Below are positions 21,218 through 33,969 of a stretch of DNA of 64,000 bases, one piece after another. A program made the position numbers and the translations under genes. Below the pieces are notes generated by a model. That model was not told where the DNA came from, ran no database searches, and saw only the letters and a list, made by a program, of their open reading frames with translations. How positions within the stretch are numbered: position 1 is the first letter of the stretch; each line of letters opens with the position of its first letter. The DNA is from Xanthocytophaga agilis. Lineage in GTDB: Bacteria; Bacteroidota; Bacteroidia; Cytophagales; 172606-1. The stretch spans positions 496,001 to 560,000 of the forward strand of contig NZ_JASJOU010000003.1 in the NCBI RefSeq assembly GCF_030068605.1, in the 5' to 3' direction.

Positions 21218-21256
21218 CTGTTCACGGTCGAACAGTATCTGTTCACAAACGGACAG
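21218..21256 (+). promoter_or_regulatory. Paired palindromic operator, probable enhancer site of a sigma-54 activator
   Basis: Two tandem dyads: CTGTTC-N6-GAACAG at 21218-21235 (perfect) and CTGTTC-N6-GGACAG at 21239-21256 (one mismatch), centre to centre 21 bp, two helical turns. A matching pair sits before the third permease gene at 26395. NtrC-type activators bind paired dyads like these. The regulator itself is not in the window. Confidence 0.6.
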
Positions 21257-21317: not shown

Positions 21318-21334
21318 TTGGTGCATTGTTTGTG
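21318..21334 (+). promoter_or_regulatory. Sigma-54-like promoter (-24/-12)
   Basis: TTGG at 21318-21321 and TTG at 21330-21332 keep the GG-to-TG spacing of the -24/-12 consensus TTGGCAC-N5-TTGC. The -12 reads TTGT in place of TTGC. It is 54 bp before the permease ATG and about 62 bp after the paired dyads. The agreement with the second copy at 26483 raises confidence. Confidence 0.5.
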
Positions 21335-21387: not shown

Positions 21388-23769
21388 ATGATTCGAAACT
21401 ACATCAAAATTGCCTTTCGAAATCTTTTGAAGAACAAAGCGTATTCATCCATCAATATTCTGGGATTATCTGTAGGTATGGCAGTAGCCATTCTGATAGG
21501 GTTATGGATTTATGATGAACTTTCTTATGACAAGTACCATACGAACTATGATCGTTTAGCACAGGTCTATCAGAATCAAACCTTTAGTGGCACTACAGGT
21601 ACCAGCGCTGCAATTCCTGTTCCGCTAGCAGGAGAGCTACGCACTAAGTATGGGGATGATTTCAAATCACTGGCTTTAGCTTCCTGGAACTTTGAACATA
21701 TTCTAGCTTTTGAGGACAAGAAGTTCACCAAAGAAGGAATGTTCACAGAGCCCGAACTTCCAAAAATGCTTTCTCTGAAAATGATACAAGGCACATTAGA
21801 TGGATTGAAAGATCCCTCCTCTATCCTTATTACCCAATCGCTGGCTGAAACACTTTTTGGAGATACTGACCCTATCAATAAGATCATAAAACTAGATAAT
21901 AAAACGACTTTAAAAGTAACAGGTGTCTATGAAGATCTTCCTTATAACTCAACCTTACACAGTACCTCATTTTTAATTCCCTGGGAAAAATACCTTACTC
22001 TGCAAAACTGGGTAAAAGAGTCACAAACCCAATGGAACAACAATTCTTTCCAGCTATTTGTCCAGATTGCTGATAAAGCAGATTTTGGAAAGATCAATTC
22101 AAAAATTAAAAATGTTGTTCAGTCACATCGTGCCAAAGGTGAAGATGACAAGCCTGTTGCATTCCTGCATCCTATGAGTCAATGGCATTTGTATTCTGAG
22201 TTTAAAAATGGCATAAATATAGGCGGACGCATTCAGTTTGTATGGTTGTTTGGTATTATCGGAACATTTGTATTATTACTGGCCTGTATCAACTTTATGA
22301 ACTTAAGTACCGCCCGTAGTGAAAAACGAGCTAAAGAAGTAGGTATTCGAAAAGCAATTGGGTCAGTCAGACAACAATTGATTGGACAATTTCTCAGCGA
22401 ATCACTTGTTATTGCAGGAATTGCATTTCTGGTTGGGGTATTTCTGGTACTTTGTACACTACCCTGGTTTAATACACTAGCAGATAAAGAGATGAGTATC
22501 CTCTGGACAAATCCTGTTTTCTGGATAGCCTGTCTTACCTTTACAGCTTTTACAGGTCTGATCTCAGGCAGCTACCCAGCCTTTTATTTATCTTCTTTCC
22601 AACCTGTTAAAGTATTGAAAGGTACCTTCAAAGCTGGTCGATTGGCATCCTTACCACGTAAAGTATTGGTAGTGGTACAATTTACAGTGTCTGTCAGTCT
22701 CATTATTGGAACTATTATTGTCTTTCGTCAGATCCAGTATGCGAAAAACCGTCCGATTGGTTATGATCGGGAAGGGCTCATCACGGTTATGATGAATACG
22801 CCAGAGTTGTATGGACACTATGATGTTCTTCGCAGTGACTTGATTAAAACAGGTGCTGTAGAAAACATGAGTGAATCTTCCAGTCCTACAACAGGGGTAT
22901 GGTCTAACCAGATTGGTTTTGACTGGGAAGGCAAAGACCCAAACATGCTAGCCTTGTTTGGTACTATTGCGGTTACCCATGATTATGGTAAAACAGTAGG
23001 CTGGCAATTTAAAGAAGGTCGGGATTTTTCCAGGGAATACGCTACAGATAGTGTTGGTTTTGTATTCAATGAGGCAGCTGTTAAGTATGCTGGAATAAAA
23101 GATCCTGTAGGAAAGACAGTTAGATTTAATGACAAAAAATATACAATCATTGGGATCATTAAAGATATGGTAATGGAATCCCCTTTTGATCCGATTAAAC
23201 CCACCATATTCCTGTTAGATTATGGATGGGCTAACGTTATTACCGTTAAAATGAAAGCAGGTATAAACTCAAAGGATGCTCTTGCAAAAGTTGAAGCTGT
23301 TTTCAAAAAACATAATCCGGGTAGTCCTTTTGACTTCAAGTTTGTTGATAAAGAATATGAACAAAAGTTTCGTGCAGAAGAACGTATAGGCACACTAGCT
23401 AGCTTTTTTGCCTCACTGGCTATATTTATCAGCTGTTTGGGACTGTTTGGCCTAGCCTCCTTTATGGCAGAGCAACGTACCAAAGAGATTGGTATTCGGA
23501 AAGTGCTTGGGGCTTCTGTTGTTAACTTATGGCAATTGCTATCGAAAGACTTTGTTACCTTAGTTATTATTTCATTCCTTATCGCTGCGCCGATTGCCTA
23601 CTTTACGATGAGTCAATGGCTCGAAAAATACGAATATCGTTCTGAAATCAGTTGGTGGGTATTTATCTTATCAGGAGTTGGAGCCATGGTAATTACACTG
23701 TTAACCGTAAGCTTCCAGGCTATAAAAGCTGCTTTGGCCAATCCCGTAAAATCGTTACGTTCCGAATAA
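21388..23769 (+). CDS. FtsX/MacB-type ABC transporter permease, paralogue 1 of 5
   Basis: 793 residues. Plan: N-terminal membrane helix (about 20-41) after IRNYIKIAFRNLLKNKAYS; periplasmic MacB-like core domain (about 45-270); three membrane helices of the first FtsX domain (about 285-410), with AKEVGIRKAIGS as the cytosolic coupling segment; a short helix near 430; a second periplasmic domain (about 450-660); and three final helices with EQRTKEIGIRKVLGAS. It ends AIKAALANPVKSLRSE. Such duplicated permeases need an ATPase of LolD/MacB type for activity. None is encoded nearby. The gene is preceded by a two-dyad operator and a sigma-54-like promoter. Confidence 0.92.
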   Translation: MIRNYIKIAFRNLLKNKAYSSINILGLSVGMAVAILIGLWIYDELSYDKYHTNYDRLAQVYQNQTFSGTTGTSAAIPVPLAGELRTKYGDDFKSLALASWNFEHILAFEDKKFTKEGMFTEPELPKMLSLKMIQGTLDGLKDPSSILITQSLAETLFGDTDPINKIIKLDNKTTLKVTGVYEDLPYNSTLHSTSFLIPWEKYLTLQNWVKESQTQWNNNSFQLFVQIADKADFGKINSKIKNVVQSHRAKGEDDKPVAFLHPMSQWHLYSEFKNGINIGGRIQFVWLFGIIGTFVLLLACINFMNLSTARSEKRAKEVGIRKAIGSVRQQLIGQFLSESLVIAGIAFLVGVFLVLCTLPWFNTLADKEMSILWTNPVFWIACLTFTAFTGLISGSYPAFYLSSFQPVKVLKGTFKAGRLASLPRKVLVVVQFTVSVSLIIGTIIVFRQIQYAKNRPIGYDREGLITVMMNTPELYGHYDVLRSDLIKTGAVENMSESSSPTTGVWSNQIGFDWEGKDPNMLALFGTIAVTHDYGKTVGWQFKEGRDFSREYATDSVGFVFNEAAVKYAGIKDPVGKTVRFNDKKYTIIGIIKDMVMESPFDPIKPTIFLLDYGWANVITVKMKAGINSKDALAKVEAVFKKHNPGSPFDFKFVDKEYEQKFRAEERIGTLASFFASLAIFISCLGLFGLASFMAEQRTKEIGIRKVLGASVVNLWQLLSKDFVTLVIISFLIAAPIAYFTMSQWLEKYEYRSEISWWVFILSGVGAMVITLLTVSFQAIKAALANPVKSLRSE

Positions 23770-23899: not shown

Positions 23900-26347
23900 A
23901 TGCTTCGTAACTATATCAAAATTGCACTACGAAATTTATGGAAGAACAAAGGTTTTTCTCTGATCAATATTATTGGGTTGGCAGTAGGGATATCCATCTG
24001 TCTACTGATTGTAATCTATATCCAGAGTGAACTTGGTTATGATCGGTTCAATGAAAAAGCAGATCGTATATATCGGATGGTTCTGGAACGCCGGTATCCA
24101 GGACGTTCTACCTCCTACTCTATTATTCCTCATTCCATAGGAGAAGCTGTTCAGAAAGAATATTCAGAAGTTCAGCAATGTATGCGGATGTATGCGGATG
24201 GTGGTAATACAATTTTTATTCGGATAGGTAATCAGGTATTTGAAGAGAATCATGTCATCTTTGCTGACTCAAACTTTTTTCAAGTCTTTACAATTCCGTT
24301 AACTCAAGGTAACCCACAAACAGCACTTAACAAACCCAACGCAGTTGTTCTGACAGAGGAAACTGCCTTAAAGTATTTTGGAACCTTAAATGTTCTGAAT
24401 AAAACAATAAAACTTGATGCAGGAGGCAATGATTTGATTGTAACGGGTGTATGCTCTAAAGTACCCGAAAATTCTCATTTCACGTTTGATCTGCTGGCAG
24501 CCTCATCCGGTATAGATTTCACCAAACAAATAAACTACACAGGCTTTGACGCGTATACATATTTTCTGCTACAACCCAATGCTTCTGCCAAATCACTAGA
24601 GGCAAAGTTCCCCAAGATCATTGAAAAGTATGTAGCAGGAGAAATAGCCCGTACATTTGATATCTCCTACGAGCAGTTTCAGGCAGCTGGTAATGGATAC
24701 AATTATTCTCTACAACCATTACTGGATATCCATTTGCACTCAGACCTGGAAGCAGAACTCAAACCGAATGGTAGCATCTCTACTATTTATATATTTTCAG
24801 TCATTGCTGGATTTATTTTGTTGATTGCCTGTGTGAACTTTGTAAATCTGGCTACAGCCCGCTCTGTAGAACGAGCTAAAGAAGTAGGTATTCGAAAAAC
24901 CTTTGGCTCTGAGCGAAAAATGCTGGTCATGCAATTTCTTACTGAGGCGGTTGTGATCAGTGTCTTTAGCTTTATTACGTCCTGTCTCCTATTACTTATT
25001 CTTCTACCTTTCTTCAATAAGATCTCTGGCAAAGAGCTATCATTAGGCTTTTTATTGAATCCTGTATTCATGCCAGGATTTTTACTTTTTTCTATTCTGA
25101 TTGGTCTTGTGGCTGGCAGCTATCCGGCTCTTATATTGTCCTCATTTCAGCCACTGGCAGTGCTTCGAGGAAAGTTCAAACACAATCAGAGGGGGATTGA
25201 ATTACGCAATGGATTGGTGATCTTTCAGTTTAGTATTTCAATTATTCTTATCATCTGCACAATTGTTGTTTTTAAACAGATGCAGTTTATGCAAGGAGAT
25301 CGCTTGGGCTTTCAAAAAGATCATATCATTACCTTACAGCGAACAGATCTTTTAACTACAAAAACAAAAGCGTTCAAAACTGAGCTCAAAAAAATTGCTG
25401 GAGTTGAAGATGTCTCAGGTGCATCGTCTATGCCTGGTGGTCAAAACTTTTTTGGTATGACAATGAAAGCAGAAGGAGTAAAAGAACCACTCACAGGAAG
25501 AGGATTAGTTGTAGATAATGATTTTGCCTCTACACTCAAACTGGAAATAGTCAAAGGTCGCAGCTTTTCCGATAAATTTCCGTCTGATTCATTGGCTGTT
25601 ATGCTGAATGAAAAAGCGGTAGCAGAACTAGGACTAGCCAATCCTATTGGTGCACGGCTTACCAGTCCGGACCCTTTTCTGAATCAGCCCGGCAAGCCTG
25701 GTCAAACCTACTACACAGTTGTAGGAATTCTCAAAGATTTTCATTTTCAATCACTGCACCAAAAAATCACTCCCCTTATTCTGCTTAACACAAGCAAGTT
25801 TGGAGAAGTATCACCCTTAACCAGCCTACGCATTCAGTCTGATAAGTTTCAGCATACACTTACTACCATTGAATCTCTGTGGCATCAGTTTCTTCCACAG
25901 CAGCCGTTTCACTATTCCTTTCTGGATCAGGATCTGGCTGCATTATATCATGCCGAACAAACCTCTCAGCGCGTATTTGGTGTATTTTCTATACTAGCGA
26001 TTTTTATAGCCTGTATGGGTTTACTGGGTCTGGCAGCCTATACTACCCAGCAACGCACCAAAGAGATTGGAGTACGCAAGGTATTAGGCGCTTCAGTACA
26101 ACAGATTATCGTATTACTGTCCAGAGATTTTATAAGACTGGTAGGCATTTCTTTTGTGCTAGCCTCGCCCATAGCCTGGTGGGTAATGAGTCGATGGTTG
26201 GAGAACTTTGCTTACCGAACCGGACTAAGCTGGTGGATTTTCGTTGTAGCGGGAATTGCAGCTACAGGCATAGCTTTGCTAACCATTAGTTATCAAGCCG
26301 TTAAAGCGGCTCTTACCAATCCGGTAAAAGCTCTTCGTACAGAATAG
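23900..26347 (+). CDS. FtsX/MacB-type ABC transporter permease, paralogue 2 of 5
   Basis: 815 residues with the same double FtsX plan as its neighbours: NYIKIALRNLWKNKGFSLIN at the N-terminus, a first periplasmic domain to about 285, AKEVGIRKTFGSERK as first coupling segment, a second periplasmic domain with VTGV/VVGILKDFHFQSLH, and QQRTKEIGVRKVLGAS as second coupling segment. It ends AVKAALTNPVKALRTE. Family members export or extract lipophilic or peptide cargo with a separate ATPase; the cargo here is unknown. It lies after the terminator of permease 1 and I see no dyad operator or sigma-54 element before it, so it has its own promoter, or depends on read-through. Confidence 0.92.
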   Translation: MLRNYIKIALRNLWKNKGFSLINIIGLAVGISICLLIVIYIQSELGYDRFNEKADRIYRMVLERRYPGRSTSYSIIPHSIGEAVQKEYSEVQQCMRMYADGGNTIFIRIGNQVFEENHVIFADSNFFQVFTIPLTQGNPQTALNKPNAVVLTEETALKYFGTLNVLNKTIKLDAGGNDLIVTGVCSKVPENSHFTFDLLAASSGIDFTKQINYTGFDAYTYFLLQPNASAKSLEAKFPKIIEKYVAGEIARTFDISYEQFQAAGNGYNYSLQPLLDIHLHSDLEAELKPNGSISTIYIFSVIAGFILLIACVNFVNLATARSVERAKEVGIRKTFGSERKMLVMQFLTEAVVISVFSFITSCLLLLILLPFFNKISGKELSLGFLLNPVFMPGFLLFSILIGLVAGSYPALILSSFQPLAVLRGKFKHNQRGIELRNGLVIFQFSISIILIICTIVVFKQMQFMQGDRLGFQKDHIITLQRTDLLTTKTKAFKTELKKIAGVEDVSGASSMPGGQNFFGMTMKAEGVKEPLTGRGLVVDNDFASTLKLEIVKGRSFSDKFPSDSLAVMLNEKAVAELGLANPIGARLTSPDPFLNQPGKPGQTYYTVVGILKDFHFQSLHQKITPLILLNTSKFGEVSPLTSLRIQSDKFQHTLTTIESLWHQFLPQQPFHYSFLDQDLAALYHAEQTSQRVFGVFSILAIFIACMGLLGLAAYTTQQRTKEIGVRKVLGASVQQIIVLLSRDFIRLVGISFVLASPIAWWVMSRWLENFAYRTGLSWWIFVVAGIAATGIALLTISYQAVKAALTNPVKALRTE

Positions 26348-26394: not shown

Positions 26395-26433
26395 CTGTTC
26401 GCAAACGTGCAGTATTGTCCATTATCGGACAAT
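26395..26433 (+). promoter_or_regulatory. Paired palindromic operator before permease 3
   Basis: First dyad CTGTTC-N6-GTGCAG (26395-26412, imperfect), second ATTGTCC-N6-GGACAAT (26414-26433, perfect 7-bp arms), centre to centre 20 bp. The arrangement and sequence match the site at 21218-21256 (shared pattern CTGTTC, CAGTAT, CGGACA), although the flanking DNA is unrelated, which suggests conserved function. Confidence 0.6.
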
Positions 26434-26448
26434 ATTCGCGTTATGCAT

Positions 26449-26479
26449 GCCCTTTATTTGCAGATAAAGGGCTTTTTTT
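26449..26479 (+). terminator. Rho-independent terminator between operator and promoter
   Basis: Stem GCCCTTTAT/ATAAAGGGC with a six-base loop, then seven Ts. It terminates the permease 2 transcript and sits between the dyad operator and the sigma-54-like promoter of permease 3, so it insulates that promoter from upstream transcription. Confidence 0.88.
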
Positions 26480-26482
26480 ATT

Positions 26483-26499
26483 TTGGCATATAGCTTGTT
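26483..26499 (+). promoter_or_regulatory. Sigma-54-like promoter (-24/-12) of permease 3
   Basis: TTGGCA at 26483-26488 and CTTG at 26494-26497: the -24 half matches the consensus well and the -12 half reads TTGT instead of TTGC, as in the copy before permease 1. It lies 50 bp after the second dyad and about 96 bp before the ATG. Confidence 0.55.
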
Positions 26500-26594
26500 T
26501 CTCGATAGGGACTCAGTATTTCTTGTTCCTGTAATCTGGTACCATAAAGATACTCAGGTTAGGTATACTGTAACTCTACCTACTCACTACAACT

Positions 26595-28979
26595 ATGCTT
26601 AAGAATCTACTACAAGTCGCGTTCCGGAACTTAACCAAAGACAAAGGTTTTAGTCTGTTAAATATTCTTGGACTAACCATTGGAATTACCTTTAGCTTAT
26701 TCTTATTGTTTTATATAAGGGATGAGCTAAACTTTGATCGTTACCATACAAAAGCAGACCATATTTACCGCATTATCACCCACCTGCAGGAACCAGAACG
26801 AACTGATCATGTAGCTATTACCCAATTTGTACTTGCCCCGGCATTGAAGAAAGAATATCCGGAAGTAGAGCAAGCGGTCCGCTTTGTCGGAAAAGGGCGA
26901 ACGCTGTTAAAAAACGGAGAGCAGCATCTTTTTGAAGACAAAATATTCTTTGCAGACAGTAATCTATTTGAGGTATTTACCTATCCCTTTCTTGAAGGAG
27001 ATCCGAAAACAGCCTTGTTAGCGCCTAACTCTATTCTATTAACAGAAACACTGGCGAAAAAACTTTTTTCAACAACTAAAGATCTAACTGGTAAATCCTT
27101 GCAAACATCTAATGGAACAGTATATAAAATAACAGGAATTCTACAGGATATACCACTTAATTCACATATCCGATTCAATGCACTCCTATCTGTAAGCACA
27201 CTCCCAAAAGACTTCGGCAATAACTGGGGTAATTTTGGCTTTTTCACCTATGTATTACTCAATCCTGCTGTAAACCCATCCGCATTTGAAAAAAAGCTGT
27301 TGCCTATGTATGATAAATACATGGCAAGTATTTTTGCACCTTTCAATGTCAAAATGCATTATGGCGTCCAACCTATTACTGATATCCATCTTCACTCTAC
27401 ACTAAATGGTGAACCTGAAGAACTCGGTAGTATGTCGTACATTTATACGTTTTCGATTGTAGCGGTATTCATGTTGCTCATTGCCAGTATCAACTACATG
27501 AATTTAACAACAGCACGATCTGCACGCAGAGCAAAGGAAATAGGTATTCGTAAAGTAGCAGGCTCGACACAATTTCAATTGATTCTGCAGTTTTTGACAG
27601 AATCAATTGTATTGACATTTGTCTCCTTTATAGTAAGCATAGTATTTATTTTTTTCCTGATTCCGGTATTTAATACATTATCAGGCAAGCTATTTAAATT
27701 TAGTACTCTTTTTCATCCGTTTACATTTCTTTCGCTGATTGGCATTATAGTACTGGTAGGTCTGATTGGAGGTAGTTATCCAGCGTTTTATCTGGCTAAA
27801 TTTAATCCTGTATCTGTATTAAAGGGCAGTCTGGCTAAAGGGTCCAGTAACATAGCCTTACGGAGAGTGTTGGTTGTAATGCAGTTTTCCATTTCTATGA
27901 TTATGTTGATCTGCACCTGGATAGTATATGACCAGTTGCAGTTTTTACGCACCAAAGATCTGGGGTATGACAAGGAACAGGTAATGGTTATTAATTTGAA
28001 CCAACAAGGTGATGTAAAGAGCAAATTACGTTTGCTTCAAAATGAATTACGTAAAAATTCACAGATAATTGATGTAAGTACATCCAATGCTACACCGGGG
28101 TCTGATGCCAGCAAAATCTTATTTGAGATAGAATCGAAAAATGGTTTTACCAATTACGCTTCTGATATTTATGGTATAGATCCATTCTATTTAAAAACAT
28201 TGGGTATTAAACTCGTTGAAGGAAGAAACTTTACCGAAACAGATCAGTCTGATACCTTACGAAGAGCCATTGTCAATGAAGCGATGCTGAAGCAAATGGG
28301 CTGGCAGGAAGCTTTAGGTAAAAAGATCCGCTTTGCAGGTGATACAGCCAATACTATGGAAGTAATTGGTGTGGTAAAAGACTTCCACCAAAGATCTCTT
28401 TATAACCCTATAGAGCCTCTCATTCTTGTATATCGGCAAAATAACAATACCATTCAGGTTAAAGTCAGCAATCAGAATATTCCTGCCACAGTTGGTTATG
28501 TAGAAAAACAGGTCAAATCCGTATTTCCGGATGAGCCATTTCAATACACCTTCCTGGATCAGGACTTTACCACTCAGTTTGCAGCCGACCAGCGGAGAGG
28601 CCAGATATTTACCGCTTTTTCATCTCTGACTATATTAATAGCCTGTCTGGGCCTATTGGGATTGGTAGCATTCACTACCCAGCAACGACAAAAGGAAATC
28701 AGCATCCGGAAAATACTGGGAGCTGAAACAGGAAACTTATTCCTTCTCATCAATAAGAATTTTCTGCTTCTGATAGGAGTAGCCTGTATTATATCCTTTC
28801 CTGTCTCGTATTATTTTATGCATCAATGGTTGAGTACTTTCCCATATCGTACACCTTTAAAGCCTGAAACCTTTATTATTTCAAGCCTGGTGATTCTACT
28901 TATCACGCTCTTAACAGTAAGCTACCATACAATCAGGGCAGCTTTATCAAATCCTGTTAACGCCTTACGATCTGAATAA
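26595..28979 (+). CDS. FtsX/MacB-type ABC transporter permease, paralogue 3 of 5
   Basis: 794 residues, the same plan: N-terminal LLQVAFRNLTKDKGFSLLN and membrane helix; periplasmic domain with TGILQDIPLNSHI; first FtsX helices with AKEIGIRKVAGSTQFQ; second periplasmic domain with VIGVVKDFHQRSLY; and last helices with QQRQKEISIRKILGAE. It ends TIRAALSNPVNALRSE. The second coupling segment departs from the KEIGIRKVLGAS of the others, so this copy is more diverged. It has its own two-dyad operator and sigma-54-like promoter, shared in type with paralogue 1. The ATPase partner is not in the window. Confidence 0.92.
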   Translation: MLKNLLQVAFRNLTKDKGFSLLNILGLTIGITFSLFLLFYIRDELNFDRYHTKADHIYRIITHLQEPERTDHVAITQFVLAPALKKEYPEVEQAVRFVGKGRTLLKNGEQHLFEDKIFFADSNLFEVFTYPFLEGDPKTALLAPNSILLTETLAKKLFSTTKDLTGKSLQTSNGTVYKITGILQDIPLNSHIRFNALLSVSTLPKDFGNNWGNFGFFTYVLLNPAVNPSAFEKKLLPMYDKYMASIFAPFNVKMHYGVQPITDIHLHSTLNGEPEELGSMSYIYTFSIVAVFMLLIASINYMNLTTARSARRAKEIGIRKVAGSTQFQLILQFLTESIVLTFVSFIVSIVFIFFLIPVFNTLSGKLFKFSTLFHPFTFLSLIGIIVLVGLIGGSYPAFYLAKFNPVSVLKGSLAKGSSNIALRRVLVVMQFSISMIMLICTWIVYDQLQFLRTKDLGYDKEQVMVINLNQQGDVKSKLRLLQNELRKNSQIIDVSTSNATPGSDASKILFEIESKNGFTNYASDIYGIDPFYLKTLGIKLVEGRNFTETDQSDTLRRAIVNEAMLKQMGWQEALGKKIRFAGDTANTMEVIGVVKDFHQRSLYNPIEPLILVYRQNNNTIQVKVSNQNIPATVGYVEKQVKSVFPDEPFQYTFLDQDFTTQFAADQRRGQIFTAFSSLTILIACLGLLGLVAFTTQQRQKEISIRKILGAETGNLFLLINKNFLLLIGVACIISFPVSYYFMHQWLSTFPYRTPLKPETFIISSLVILLITLLTVSYHTIRAALSNPVNALRSE

Positions 28980-28989
28980 GTCCAAACAA

Positions 28990-29020
28990 AGCCCATACCT
29001 AAACTTATGGGCTTGCTTTT
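28990..29020 (+). terminator. Short hairpin between permeases 3 and 4
   Basis: Stem AGCCCATA/TATGGGCT with an eight-base loop, followed by a T-rich stretch broken by other bases. It sits 10 bp past the stop of paralogue 3. It overlaps the first codons of the longest possible frame of permease 4, which argues for the later start at 29034. Confidence 0.6.
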
Positions 29021-29033
29021 AAACTTTTCTTGT

Positions 29034-31478
29034 ATGATACAGAATTATCTTAAAATCGCTCTTCGCAATTTAAATCGCTTCAGAAGCTTTGCGTTCATTA
29101 ACATTATTGGTTTGACAATGGGTATGACCTGTTGTTTTATGATTTTGTTGTTTGTGCGCAATGAATTAAGCTTTGATACTTTTCACGAAAAGTTTGACAG
29201 AATATATCGTATCACATACAATCCAAAATTTGCGGAGTTACCTACTGCACTGGCTGTGCTTCCACCCCCTGTAGCTCCTTTATTGCCTGGCTATTTTCCT
29301 CAGATGGAAACTGCTGCCCGTATGTATCGCCGTAATGCCAGTATGGCTGTCAATCAGGGCGATATAAAAAAGAGTTTTGAGGAAGAAAACTTCTTCTTTG
29401 CGGATTCTTCTATCCTGCAAATGTTCTCCTTCGCATTCCTGAAGGGAGATCCTAAAACGGCTCTTAATGAAACATTTACCATAATTCTGACAGAGGAGAT
29501 GGAGAAGAAATATTTTGGTAGTCAATCGGCATTAGGACAAACAATCCTGTTTGGAGGTATGCATCCAATGAAAGTAACAGGTGTTGTCAAAGAATTTCCA
29601 GACAACTCACATATTCATTTCAATTTCATCTCCAACTATCAAACCATGTTCGCGCTGGAGAATCCTGAAGCACGGGAAAACCTGCCTCGCAACTGGATTA
29701 TCAGCCATTCATTCACCTATGTATTATTAAAACCAAATCAGAATCCTGCATCAGTAAATGCCCGATTCCCTCAGTTTTTACTGGATCATGCTCCCAAACA
29801 ATTCAGCAAAGACATAGAATATCAGTTACAACCGATGCGTGATTTTCACCTCAGATCTAATCTGGGAGGAGAAGCTGAGGCTCCTGGAAATATCACTTAT
29901 TTATATGTGTTTACAGGTGTTGCTTTTATTACATTACTGATTGCTTGTATCAACTTTGTCAACCTTTCTACAGCTCGTTCACTGAAACGTGCTAAAGAAG
30001 TAGGTATGCGTAAAGTACTGGGGGCAGAGAGAAAACACCTTATTCAGCAGTTTCTAGGTGAATCCTTTTTACTGGCGTCGATTGCCTTTCTATGTTCGTT
30101 TATCCTGATTCAGTTATTCTTACCTGTAATGAATACACTAACAGGAAAACACTTGTCATTCTCTACTTTACTAAATGATCCTATTCTCATACCTTCCTTT
30201 ATTGGAATATTTCTCATAACCAGTTTGCTGGCAGGTAGCTATCCGGCATTTTTCGTATCAGCCTTCCAGCCTATTACTACATTAAAAGGAAGCTATACCA
30301 GTGAAAAAGCGAAGGGAGGAATTTTGCGGCAAGCATTGGTGGTTGTACAGTTTGCAGCATCTATAGGGCTAATCATTGCGGCAAGCATCGCCTTCAATCA
30401 GTTGCATTTTATGCGTAATCAACCTTTAGGATTTGAGAAAGACTACATTATTACGGCACCTCTGTTTAGTCAGAACCTGAACAATATATTCCTTCCATCT
30501 AACGATAGCCTGTATCAAAAGATCAAAACGTTTAGAAATGTACTAAAACAGAATCCGTCTATTGAGGAAGTAACATTATCCAGTCAGGCATTGGGTCAGG
30601 GAAGCACACGAAGAGGAATTGTACCGGAAGGCTTTACAAAAGAAGACAACAAATTTATTGCCTGTCTGGCAGTAGATTACAACTTTCTGAAAACCTATAA
30701 CATGAAATTACTGGCAGGACGGGATTTTTCGGAAGACTTTGAAACAGATAAACAGGCCGCCTTTCTTATCACTGAAACCGGAGCTAAATCGTTCGGATGG
30801 ACTACTCCGGCTAAAGCCTTGGGTAAAACTATTGACAGAGAAGGAAAACAAGGAAAGATTATTGGAGTAATACAGGATTTTCATGCAGAAACATTGTCTC
30901 AACCATTGGAAGGTGTTCTTATAGATGTTGATATTCCTCAACTGAACTTATTCTCAATAAAGATCAGTTCAAGCAATGTACCTCAGACACTCAGTTTCCT
31001 GGAGAAGAAATGGTCTGAGTATTTCCCGGAAAAGGCATTTGAATATGACTTTCTTGATACATCCATTGCCCGTCAGTACGAAAGTGATCAGCGTCTGGGA
31101 AATATCATCAGCTACTTTGCCGGGTTGGTTGTTCTTATTTCCTGCCTGGGTCTGTATGGTCTTATTTCTCTGGTAGCACAACAAAAAGTAAAGGAAATAG
31201 GTATTCGAAAAGTATTGGGAGCTTCGATCAGTCAGATAGTAATCCTTCTGTCAAAAGATTTTATCAAACTTGTCCTTATCTCATTTGTTATTGCGGTCCC
31301 TGTTGCGTGGTACTTTATGAATAAATGGCTACAAGGATTTGCCTTTCGGATTGATATTTCGTGGTGGATATTTTTACTGGCAGGTATTCTGGCAATGATT
31401 GTAGCTCAGGCCACAGTAAGCTATCAGGCCATTCGTGCAGCAAGAGCTAATCCTGTCAAATCCCTTAGATCTGAATAA
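29034..31478 (+). CDS. FtsX/MacB-type ABC transporter permease, paralogue 4 of 5
   Basis: 814 residues from the ATG at 29034. A start 27 bp earlier is open but lies inside a hairpin and adds residues absent in the paralogues. N-terminal IQNYLKIALRNLNRFRSFAF and membrane helix, periplasmic domain with VTGVVKEFPDNSHIHF, first coupling segment AKEVGMRKVLGAERKH, second periplasmic domain with IIGVIQDFHAETLS, second coupling segment QQKVKEIGIRKVLGAS. It ends AIRAARANPVKSLRSE. Only 54 bp separate it from paralogue 3, so it could be read in part from the promoter of that gene if the hairpin between them leaks. Confidence 0.9.
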   Translation: MIQNYLKIALRNLNRFRSFAFINIIGLTMGMTCCFMILLFVRNELSFDTFHEKFDRIYRITYNPKFAELPTALAVLPPPVAPLLPGYFPQMETAARMYRRNASMAVNQGDIKKSFEEENFFFADSSILQMFSFAFLKGDPKTALNETFTIILTEEMEKKYFGSQSALGQTILFGGMHPMKVTGVVKEFPDNSHIHFNFISNYQTMFALENPEARENLPRNWIISHSFTYVLLKPNQNPASVNARFPQFLLDHAPKQFSKDIEYQLQPMRDFHLRSNLGGEAEAPGNITYLYVFTGVAFITLLIACINFVNLSTARSLKRAKEVGMRKVLGAERKHLIQQFLGESFLLASIAFLCSFILIQLFLPVMNTLTGKHLSFSTLLNDPILIPSFIGIFLITSLLAGSYPAFFVSAFQPITTLKGSYTSEKAKGGILRQALVVVQFAASIGLIIAASIAFNQLHFMRNQPLGFEKDYIITAPLFSQNLNNIFLPSNDSLYQKIKTFRNVLKQNPSIEEVTLSSQALGQGSTRRGIVPEGFTKEDNKFIACLAVDYNFLKTYNMKLLAGRDFSEDFETDKQAAFLITETGAKSFGWTTPAKALGKTIDREGKQGKIIGVIQDFHAETLSQPLEGVLIDVDIPQLNLFSIKISSSNVPQTLSFLEKKWSEYFPEKAFEYDFLDTSIARQYESDQRLGNIISYFAGLVVLISCLGLYGLISLVAQQKVKEIGIRKVLGASISQIVILLSKDFIKLVLISFVIAVPVAWYFMNKWLQGFAFRIDISWWIFLLAGILAMIVAQATVSYQAIRAARANPVKSLRSE

Positions 31479-31539: not shown

Positions 31540-33969
31540 ATGCTAAGAAACTACTTTAAGATTGCAATGCGGAATCTGTGGCGTAACAAAGGTTTTTCAG
31601 CAACAAACATCTTTGGTTTATCTATTGGTATTGCCACCTGTCTGTTAATTATGTTATATGTTCTGGATGAGATCAGCTATGATCGTTTTTACTCCAACGC
31701 AGATCGTATATACAGACTTAATTCGGATATCAAATTTGGAGGCAATCAGATGAGTCTAGCTGTAATGCCCGCCCCAACTGGTGCTGCATTGGTGCGTGAT
31801 TACCCATTGGTAGAAGCTGCTGCACGTATACGACAAACAGGAAGTATACTGGTAAAAAAAGGAAACGAAAACATCAAAGAAGATGGACAAAATGTCGGCT
31901 ATGCAGACTCAACTATTTTCAGAGTTTTCTCTTTTCCAATGCTGTATGGCAACCCAGACAAAGCACTTACAGAGCCTCATACACTTGTTATTTCTGAACG
32001 AATAGCCCAGAAATACTTTGGGGAGTCCAATGTGGTAGGTAAAACAATGATTCTGGATGATAAACAACCCTACAAAGTAGTGGGTGTTATAGAGAATCTT
32101 CCAACCAATTCACATTTAAAAATTGATTTCTTTCTTACGATGCTTGACCATGAAGATAGTAAGATTGATAATTGGGTAAGTCACAACTACACCACCTATT
32201 TATTGTTGAAAGAGGGAGTAAAACCAGCTCAGTTAGAAGCAGTATTTGATAATCTACTTTTAAAATATGTAGGCCCCCAAATAAAACAAGCATTTGGCTC
32301 TACGCTGAATGACTTAAAAAAGTCAGGAAGCTATCTTAATTATAGCCTGATGCCTGTTTCTGATATCCATCTGTATTCAGACCGTGTGGCTGAAGTATCT
32401 CCTAATAGTAATGTTCAGTATGTTTATATTTTCTCTGCTGTAGCCTTTTTCATACTGCTTATTGCCTGTATCAACTTTATGAACCTGGCTACAGCCCGTT
32501 CAGCTAATCGAGCAAAAGAAGTAGGTGTACGAAAAGTTCTTGGATCTTACCGGAGCAGTTTAATTTATCAGTTTCTTACAGAATCTATTTTGTTAACAGG
32601 TATTGCGTTTGTCCTTGCATTGGGTATAGGAGTGATATTACTCCCTTTATTTAATGACTTATCAGGCAAACAAATGACTATGTCTGTCATTGAACATCCC
32701 CTGATTATACCTGTACTATTATTATTCACCCTATTTACAGGTTTATTGGCAGGAAGTTATCCGGCATTCTTTTTATCTGCATTTGAGCCTATTCAGGTAT
32801 TAAAGGGTAAGCTAAGTCAAGGAGCTAAAAGCAGTAGCTTACGGAGTTCATTGGTTGTATTTCAGTTTCTGGCCTCTGTCTTTTTGATTATATGTACTGT
32901 TGTTATCTATCAGCAACTCACCTTCATTCAAAACAAACAATTAGGGTTCAATAAAGAACAGGTACTTATTGTTAATGATGCCAGTGCATTAGGAAACAGC
33001 ACAGAAAGCTTCAAAAATGAAGTCTTGCGTTTGGAAGAAGTGAAAAATGGAACTATTACCGGATATCTTCCTGTACCCTCCTGGCGTAGCGACAATCTTT
33101 ATTTTCCGGAAGGAGAAATAAGACAGGATAAAGCAGTCTCTATACAAAGCTGGAATGTAGATTATGATTATATTCAAACGATGGGAATGCAGATCATTAA
33201 AGGCCGAGACTTTGATAAACAGTTACCGACAGACTCTTCTGGTATTATTATTAATGAAACTGCTGCTAAACTCTTTGGTTATTCCAATCCGATTGGAAGA
33301 CGCATCTCTGCTTTAACTGATTTTAAAACTCAGCAAACACGTGCCTACACAATCGTTGGAGTAGTCAAAAACTTTAATTTTGAGTCTCTGAGACAAAATA
33401 TTGGTGCTGTATGCTTTACACTTGGAAATGCACCTGGCAGTGTTAGTTTTCGTCTGAGTACAGAAAATATACCTGCTACTATTTCAAAAATTGAAGCCAA
33501 ATGGAAAACTATTGCTCCGGGGCAGCCATTTAACTATCAGTTTATGGATGAGGCATTTACCAACGTATATCAGAGTGAGCAAAAAGTGGGTAAGCTATTT
33601 ATCACATTTGCCCTACTTGCTATCTTTATAGCTTGTCTGGGCTTATTTGGATTATCAGCCTATTCAGCTGAACAACGTACCAAAGAAATTGGTATTAGGA
33701 AAGTTCTCGGAGCCAGTATATCCAATATTGTTGCCCTGTTATCCAAAGATTTTTTAAAACTCATATTGATTGCCAATGGTATAGCCTTTCCATTAGCCTA
33801 CTGGGCTATGAGTACCTGGTTACAGGACTTTGCTTTTAAGGTCAACATTCAGTGGTGGGTGTTTTTGATAGCAGGTATAGCAGCTTTGTTGATTGCTTTG
33901 TTAACCGTAAGCTTCCAGGCCATCAAGGCAGCCTTGATCAATCCGGTTAAATCTTTGCGATCTGAATAA
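31540..33969 (+). CDS. FtsX/MacB-type ABC transporter permease, paralogue 5 of 5
   Basis: 809 residues. N-terminal LRNYFKIAMRNLWRNKGFSA and membrane helix, periplasmic domain with VVGVIENLPTNSHLKI, first coupling segment AKEVGVRKVLGSYRSS, second periplasmic domain with IVGVVKNFNFESLR, second coupling segment EQRTKEIGIRKVLGAS. It ends AIKAALINPVKSLRSE. The last 60 codons share a 20-base exact match with paralogue 1, evidence that the genes arose by duplication. 61 bp separate it from paralogue 4, with no hairpin between, so the two may be co-transcribed. A strong terminator follows. Confidence 0.92.
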   Translation: MLRNYFKIAMRNLWRNKGFSATNIFGLSIGIATCLLIMLYVLDEISYDRFYSNADRIYRLNSDIKFGGNQMSLAVMPAPTGAALVRDYPLVEAAARIRQTGSILVKKGNENIKEDGQNVGYADSTIFRVFSFPMLYGNPDKALTEPHTLVISERIAQKYFGESNVVGKTMILDDKQPYKVVGVIENLPTNSHLKIDFFLTMLDHEDSKIDNWVSHNYTTYLLLKEGVKPAQLEAVFDNLLLKYVGPQIKQAFGSTLNDLKKSGSYLNYSLMPVSDIHLYSDRVAEVSPNSNVQYVYIFSAVAFFILLIACINFMNLATARSANRAKEVGVRKVLGSYRSSLIYQFLTESILLTGIAFVLALGIGVILLPLFNDLSGKQMTMSVIEHPLIIPVLLLFTLFTGLLAGSYPAFFLSAFEPIQVLKGKLSQGAKSSSLRSSLVVFQFLASVFLIICTVVIYQQLTFIQNKQLGFNKEQVLIVNDASALGNSTESFKNEVLRLEEVKNGTITGYLPVPSWRSDNLYFPEGEIRQDKAVSIQSWNVDYDYIQTMGMQIIKGRDFDKQLPTDSSGIIINETAAKLFGYSNPIGRRISALTDFKTQQTRAYTIVGVVKNFNFESLRQNIGAVCFTLGNAPGSVSFRLSTENIPATISKIEAKWKTIAPGQPFNYQFMDEAFTNVYQSEQKVGKLFITFALLAIFIACLGLFGLSAYSAEQRTKEIGIRKVLGASISNIVALLSKDFLKLILIANGIAFPLAYWAMSTWLQDFAFKVNIQWWVFLIAGIAALLIALLTVSFQAIKAALINPVKSLRSE

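Follow-up and report, generated by a model that had tools for sequence, protein, structure and literature searches.

The upstream activator sequence of NifA has the form TGT-N10-ACA. In the BceRS-BceAB-type systems of Firmicutes, a histidine kinase without a periplasmic domain is found beside an FtsX-family ABC transporter. Another described site is that of GlrR/QseF, TGTC-N10-GACA (PMC8745638). A 2025 study reported an enrichment of predicted sigma-54 promoters at FtsX-like permeases (COG0577) of Bacteroidia and claimed this as the first such link (PMC12316311). Sigma-54 promoters have been mapped experimentally in Flavobacterium psychrophilum, with activators left unassigned in the available part of that report (PMC9723704), and many copies of ADOP permeases occur in Dyadobacter (PMC11573002).

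Here we describe a candidate enhancer-promoter module found in a window of Xanthocytophaga agilis DNA, that is, the whole stretch of 64,000 nucleotides that was analyzed. Its dyads fit the NifA pattern in being 16-bp palindromes (TGT-N10-ACA) upstream of a sigma-54 promoter, but they have longer arms (TGTYC...GRACA), are proposed always to act in pairs, serve permease targets and have a receiver-bearing candidate activator; this protein scored 319 bits against the NifA equivalog, below the cutoff of 528.85. With GlrR/QseF the system shares a response-regulator enhancer-binding protein and TGTC/GACA half-sites, whereas the half-sites are arranged here as TGTC-N8-GACA and the candidate regulator reached 290 bits against a GlrR/QseF equivalog cutoff of 763. 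A kinase that lacks a predicted periplasmic domain and lies next to an FtsX-family ABC transporter recalls BceRS-BceAB, although the response regulator is here of the sigma-54 NtrC type and signaling by the transporter is putative. Like the promoters in PMC12316311, ours are sigma-54 boxes before Bacteroidota FtsX-like permeases predicted by scoring matrices; our addition is the two-site enhancer, together with its phasing and its likely regulator, and none of these is described for such promoters in the available text of that study. In the literature searched, in which subscription journals were mostly outside coverage, we found no published account of the enhancer, the activator or a regulator/PadR-FtsX/ADOP circuit. 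The kind of element is known, while the regulon is new as far as we found, and the enhancer and its candidate activator appear to be undescribed in that literature.

Results and discussion

The window carries five tandem permease genes on the forward strand, all with FtsX matches: permease 1 (21388-23769), for which a full-length scan placed both MacB_PCD and FtsX Pfam domains over cutoff, permease 2 (23900-26347), permease 3 (26595-28979; 794 aa), permease 4 (29007-31478) and permease 5 (31540-33969). Permease 3 matched ADOP (TIGR03434) over its full length (6-794) with 311 bits against a cutoff of 622, so that we refer to it only as an ADOP-like duplicated FtsX permease. An upstream scan confirmed the claim of the initial annotation that only genes 1 and 3 carry the module. 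Since permeases 2, 4 and 5 trail the preceding gene by 130, 27 and 61 nt, they probably lie inside two transcription units, 1-2 and 3-4-5, with permeases 1 and 3 as the probable first genes. No ATPase was found among the ORFs classified around the permeases (a subset of the window genes), and no Sigma54_activat protein in the window.

In the module, two 16-bp dyads lie about 21 bp from each other, both of the form TGTYC-N6-GRACA, and a spacer leads from them to a sigma-54 -24/-12 box. Before permease 3, direct reading of the letters agreed to the base with the dyad and box positions first proposed, all on the forward strand. The putative activator-site dyad A, CTGTTC-GCAAAC-GTGCAG (26395-26412), has the core TGTTCGCAAACGTGCA at 26396-26411, which matches the consensus in 8 of 10 positions. 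Dyad B, likewise putative, reads ATTGTCC-ATTATC-GGACAAT at 26414-26433; its perfect arms reach TATTGTCC-N6-GGACAATA (26413-26434) and its core (26416-26431) matches in 10 of 10. The predicted sigma-54 promoter TTGGCATATAGCTTGTT at 26483-26499 (TTGGCA-N5-CTTG, 26483-26497) shows GG-N10-G spacing and would direct a transcription start near 26509. In the first copy, also on the forward strand, the putative activator sites TGTTCACGGTCGAACA (21219-21234) and TGTTCACAAACGGACA (21240-21255) are followed by the predicted box TTGGTGCATTGTTTGTG (21318-21334), 78 bp past the start of dyad B. A terminator-like hairpin with a T run on the same strand (26449-26482; 10-pair stem, 7 T, folding z -2.96) probably ends the permease 1-2 unit. 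Because terminator-like sites overall occurred at chance frequency (10 versus 9.2), only this hairpin is reported, on its own folding z-score. This strong hairpin sits within the loop separating enhancer from promoter, and a comparable one was seen by eye in the module L052:5151-5277.

The view that chance is an unlikely source of the shared positions held up well: a Markov null predicted 0.1 dyad pairs per 64 kb, and no dyad pair with a box occurred in shuffled sequence. Three single-strand shuffles of all fetched loci gave 20 dyad pairs, none with a sigma-54 box (score >= 17) behind it, compared with 28 modules in the real loci. The sequence between the conserved parts was indeed unrelated among copies, as had been noted for the two in the window. 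The T-GG and T..G elements and the GG-N10-G spacing, the fixed spacing of GG- and GC-type elements typical of sigma-54 promoters, were invariant in the 28 modules, partly by choice as the box score was used for selection. A sigma-70-type promoter scan yielded 29 matches, fewer than the 40.7 in shuffled sequence. The strict pattern CTGTTC-N6-GRACAG was discarded as too narrow after five matches only, its outer C and G being unconserved, and two automatic module calls (L048:7622 and L055:6847) were judged false and excluded from the model.

Spacing was equally regular. Dyads were mostly 20-22 bp apart, and the box started 66-69 or 77-81 bp past the second dyad, two ranges that differ by one turn of the helix. 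One module scan limited the box to these two distance classes, so that the spacing counts from that scan are not independent; re-measured without preset classes (20-140 bp), distances in this genome peaked at 67-69 and 77-79 bp, and those at regulator loci across the phylum at 67-68, 77-78 and 88-90 bp. Unselected best sigma-54 boxes also landed at phased distances from the dyads: when the best box was taken anywhere in 350 bp, the top-scoring FtsX genes proved to have a dyad pair, with the box mostly 66-68 or 78-79 bp past the second dyad. An enhancer would be expected to show paired dyads some 60-110 bp before the box, facing the same side of the helix, and the observed distances agree with this. 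A T-rich run 6-10 bp upstream of the box, and A-rich runs farther out at about 16-18 and 36-40 bp, also recurred among the modules of this genome, perhaps reflecting intrinsic bending or a site for a bending protein.

The annotation had called for an alignment of regions upstream of permeases in this genome and in relatives, and had named the lack of copies at orthologous permease genes as grounds for giving up the idea. The shared module emerged from this comparison, with 26 of 39 relatives matching the model, and in the congener (G001), whose region aligns at 95.7%, both window copies recur at the orthologous places; the copies whose absence would have counted against the idea are therefore present. 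Before permease 3, dyad A is unchanged there and dyad B differs only in N6. Within the dyads, substitutions are confined to N6 and the arms are intact. The -24/-12 elements are likewise unchanged; the box before permease 3 differs in the last of its 17 bases, which lies outside the -12 element. Recurrence across the genome and in relatives, together with arms and box conserved in the congener, supports the shared function that had been considered likely.

A sequence model built from 27 modules of this genome found about 40 distinct sites at E <= 1e-4, the 27 training sites and about 13 new ones. A module stands immediately before at least 20 of the 56 long FtsX genes, and 4 more have one ahead of the gene that precedes them; one gene at least (L044), with its first ATG placed too far upstream, escaped these counts. 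Most other long FtsX genes closely trail a preceding gene and are probably internal. The targets comprise FtsX/MacB-type permease operons (some reached directly, others through a PadR gene at their head, a name taken from N-terminal sequence without a family scan), a HlyD-ATPase-FtsX operon and, as a non-FtsX target, a TolC-HlyD pair at C6:139.7 kb. Further new or non-FtsX targets are some unassigned genes and two genes (L167 and L162; G000:C1:666 kb and C9:369 kb) for similar secreted-protein-like products of 166-177 aa. These products are not transporters, and one has weak DUF3244/Por_Secre_tail matches. At least 56 long permeases in the genome compare with 15 MacB-type ATPase matches (E <= 1e-30). 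Two RpoN (Sigma54_DBD) genes are present, as expected for sigma-54 promoters. They lie at G000:C5:189144 and C1:947183, the second adjoining an enhancer-binding protein gene.

Among 15 strong Sigma54_activat proteins of the genome, the likely activator of the modules is an NtrC-type response regulator of 460 aa with receiver, Sigma54_activat and HTH_8 domains, encoded at G000:C12:151851-153230 (L076:14852-16234) and followed by a histidine kinase gene; we refer to it as the C12 regulator. In a first panel of 39 relatives, at least two modules occurred in 19 of 20 genomes with an orthologue and in 0 of 19 without (Fisher p 3e-10, ignoring shared ancestry; a contig-end fragment in G033 was counted as present, the sister type in G035 as absent). 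A second panel of 198 genomes of the class, under stricter filters, gave a module at E < 1e-4 in 18 of 24 genomes with the regulator versus 3 of 174 without (Fisher p 1e-17, again ignoring shared ancestry). Two of these three exceptions, G109 and G206, carry a sister clade of the regulator; G051 had a module-like match, with neither a close regulator nor a sister-clade member seen. In G175, G181 and G208 the regulator is present and the module absent at threshold. Other bacterial enhancer-binding proteins are encoded by most regulator-less genomes of the first panel, and FtsX domains, 3-13 of them, by all; their lack of modules is therefore not simply a lack of sigma-54 activators or FtsX, although FtsX-rich genomes in this panel were concentrated among the regulator-bearing ones. 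The C12 gene itself adjoins no module and has no dyad scoring >= 9 in the 450 bp before it; its link to the modules therefore rests on comparison. In this genome it has lost, or never had, a HlyD-ATPase-FtsX neighbor. Orthologues share the Walker A motif GENGTGK. The sigma-54 contact loop of the C12 regulator is GSFTDA rather than GAFTGA, and GAFTDA or GSFTDA occurs in 72 of 80 orthologous loci; proteins with GAFTDA are expected to stay active according to one source (PMC4641369), while another leaves their activity open (PMC10714721).

The orthologous loci provided a test independent of the module model. An unbiased scan of the DNA before 77 regulator orthologues in named genomes, listing every exact palindromic dyad with 5-letter arms, put the module dyad on top: the commonest dyads (GTCCG-N4, GTTCA-N4, TGTTC-N6 and TGTCC-N6) are registers of a single one, each found at 8-9 loci versus 0-1 of 200 background windows. 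TGTYC-N6-GRACA occurred in 21 of the 77 upstream regions, other spacings in 0-1, and model matches clustered just upstream of the regulator gene. Chitinophaga arvensicola and Algoriphagus formosus are among the species with an orthologue. The usual locus has FtsX, ATPase and HlyD genes on one side, divergent from the regulator and then the kinase; in 80 loci we recognized a kinase 75 times, FtsX 43, ATPase 39 and HlyD 33 times. Among 72 orthologous kinases, 40 have exactly two hydrophobic segments (<= 12 residues between), one has three and 31 have a single stretch, and a simple hydropathy test detected a periplasmic domain in none of them. For this reason we speculate that the kinase may take its signal from the membrane or the transporter. 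In the proteobacterium Kordiimonas aquimaris (L275), the regulator, HlyD-ATPase-FtsX neighbors and a strong module are all present, which suggests transfer of the whole circuit.

A sigma-54 enhancer-promoter of the same kind might instead be served mainly by another enhancer-binding protein, most plausibly the paralogue at G000:C10:298599-299942. The two regulators fall into a single clade (0.998) and have recognition helices that are almost the same (SRSALYRRLEKY versus TRSSLYRRLEKY), the C10 gene belongs to a HlyD-TolC-like-ATPase-FtsX-FtsX-regulator-kinase operon (L072:1311-10240) with a weaker module of its own, and G035, G109 and G206 combine modules and sister-clade members in the absence of a C12 orthologue. 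However, both the genome-wide co-occurrence and the loci found across the phylum go with the C12 type, and the module of the C10 operon is weak and oddly spaced (93 bp), so we consider a leading role of the paralogue unlikely; both regulators may nevertheless act on modules. Several module-bearing operons are led by PadR-like genes, named from N-terminal sequence, and the dyads could in principle be the operator of such a repressor on an ordinary Bacteroidota sigma-A promoter with an incidental TTGGCA/TTG box, but this is very improbable given that the GG-N10-G box is invariant in the modules and helically phased, that throughout the phylum the sites occur in company with an enhancer-binding protein and that most modules have no PadR-like gene beside them. 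Finally, recent functionless duplication of upstream DNA, which tandem paralogy of the permeases might bring to mind, is scarcely tenable, as the spacers are unrelated among copies, unlinked loci carry modules too, as do other families within the order and the class, and substitutions in the congener avoid dyad arms and box.

Very probably, then, what we see is a promoter dependent on sigma-54 and equipped with an upstream enhancer of two sites, predicted to be driven by the C12 regulator across about 40 units. In the mechanism that we infer from sequence, phosphorylated dimers of this NtrC-family protein (REC-AAA+-HTH_8) would bind the two TGTYC-N6-GRACA dyads, two helical turns apart. An AAA+ assembly would form on the dyads, the intervening DNA would loop, and the looped regulator would activate sigma-54 polymerase waiting at the -24/-12 box, leading to transcription of the permease unit. 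The same enhancer would serve about 40 units, mostly FtsX/ADOP-like permeases that outnumber the MacB-type ATPases, together with HlyD-ATPase-FtsX and TolC-HlyD units. As permease, HlyD-ATPase-FtsX and TolC-HlyD units share this enhancer, the regulator would raise parts of tripartite MacAB-like pumps together, if transport of this kind is their function.

Conclusions

Co-occurrence across the class suggests that the circuit is old, that the regulator usually sits beside a HlyD-ATPase-FtsX operon and that the regulon was enlarged in some lineages. Tentatively, and with rather low confidence, one may imagine a response regulator that co-induces dozens of dispersed ATPase-less permeases along with a handful of HlyD, ATPase and TolC units used in common, yielding interchangeable MacAB-like pumps from common parts while a membrane-embedded kinase reads the state of pump or membrane. 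Large Bacteroidota genomes have expanded sets of FtsX/ADOP-type permeases (here at least 56 long ones, as compared with 15 related ATPases), whose roles are for the most part obscure. The shared enhancer and its likely regulator offer a handle on them: a single deletion could reveal the whole set, the inducing signal and the pump parts that cooperate.
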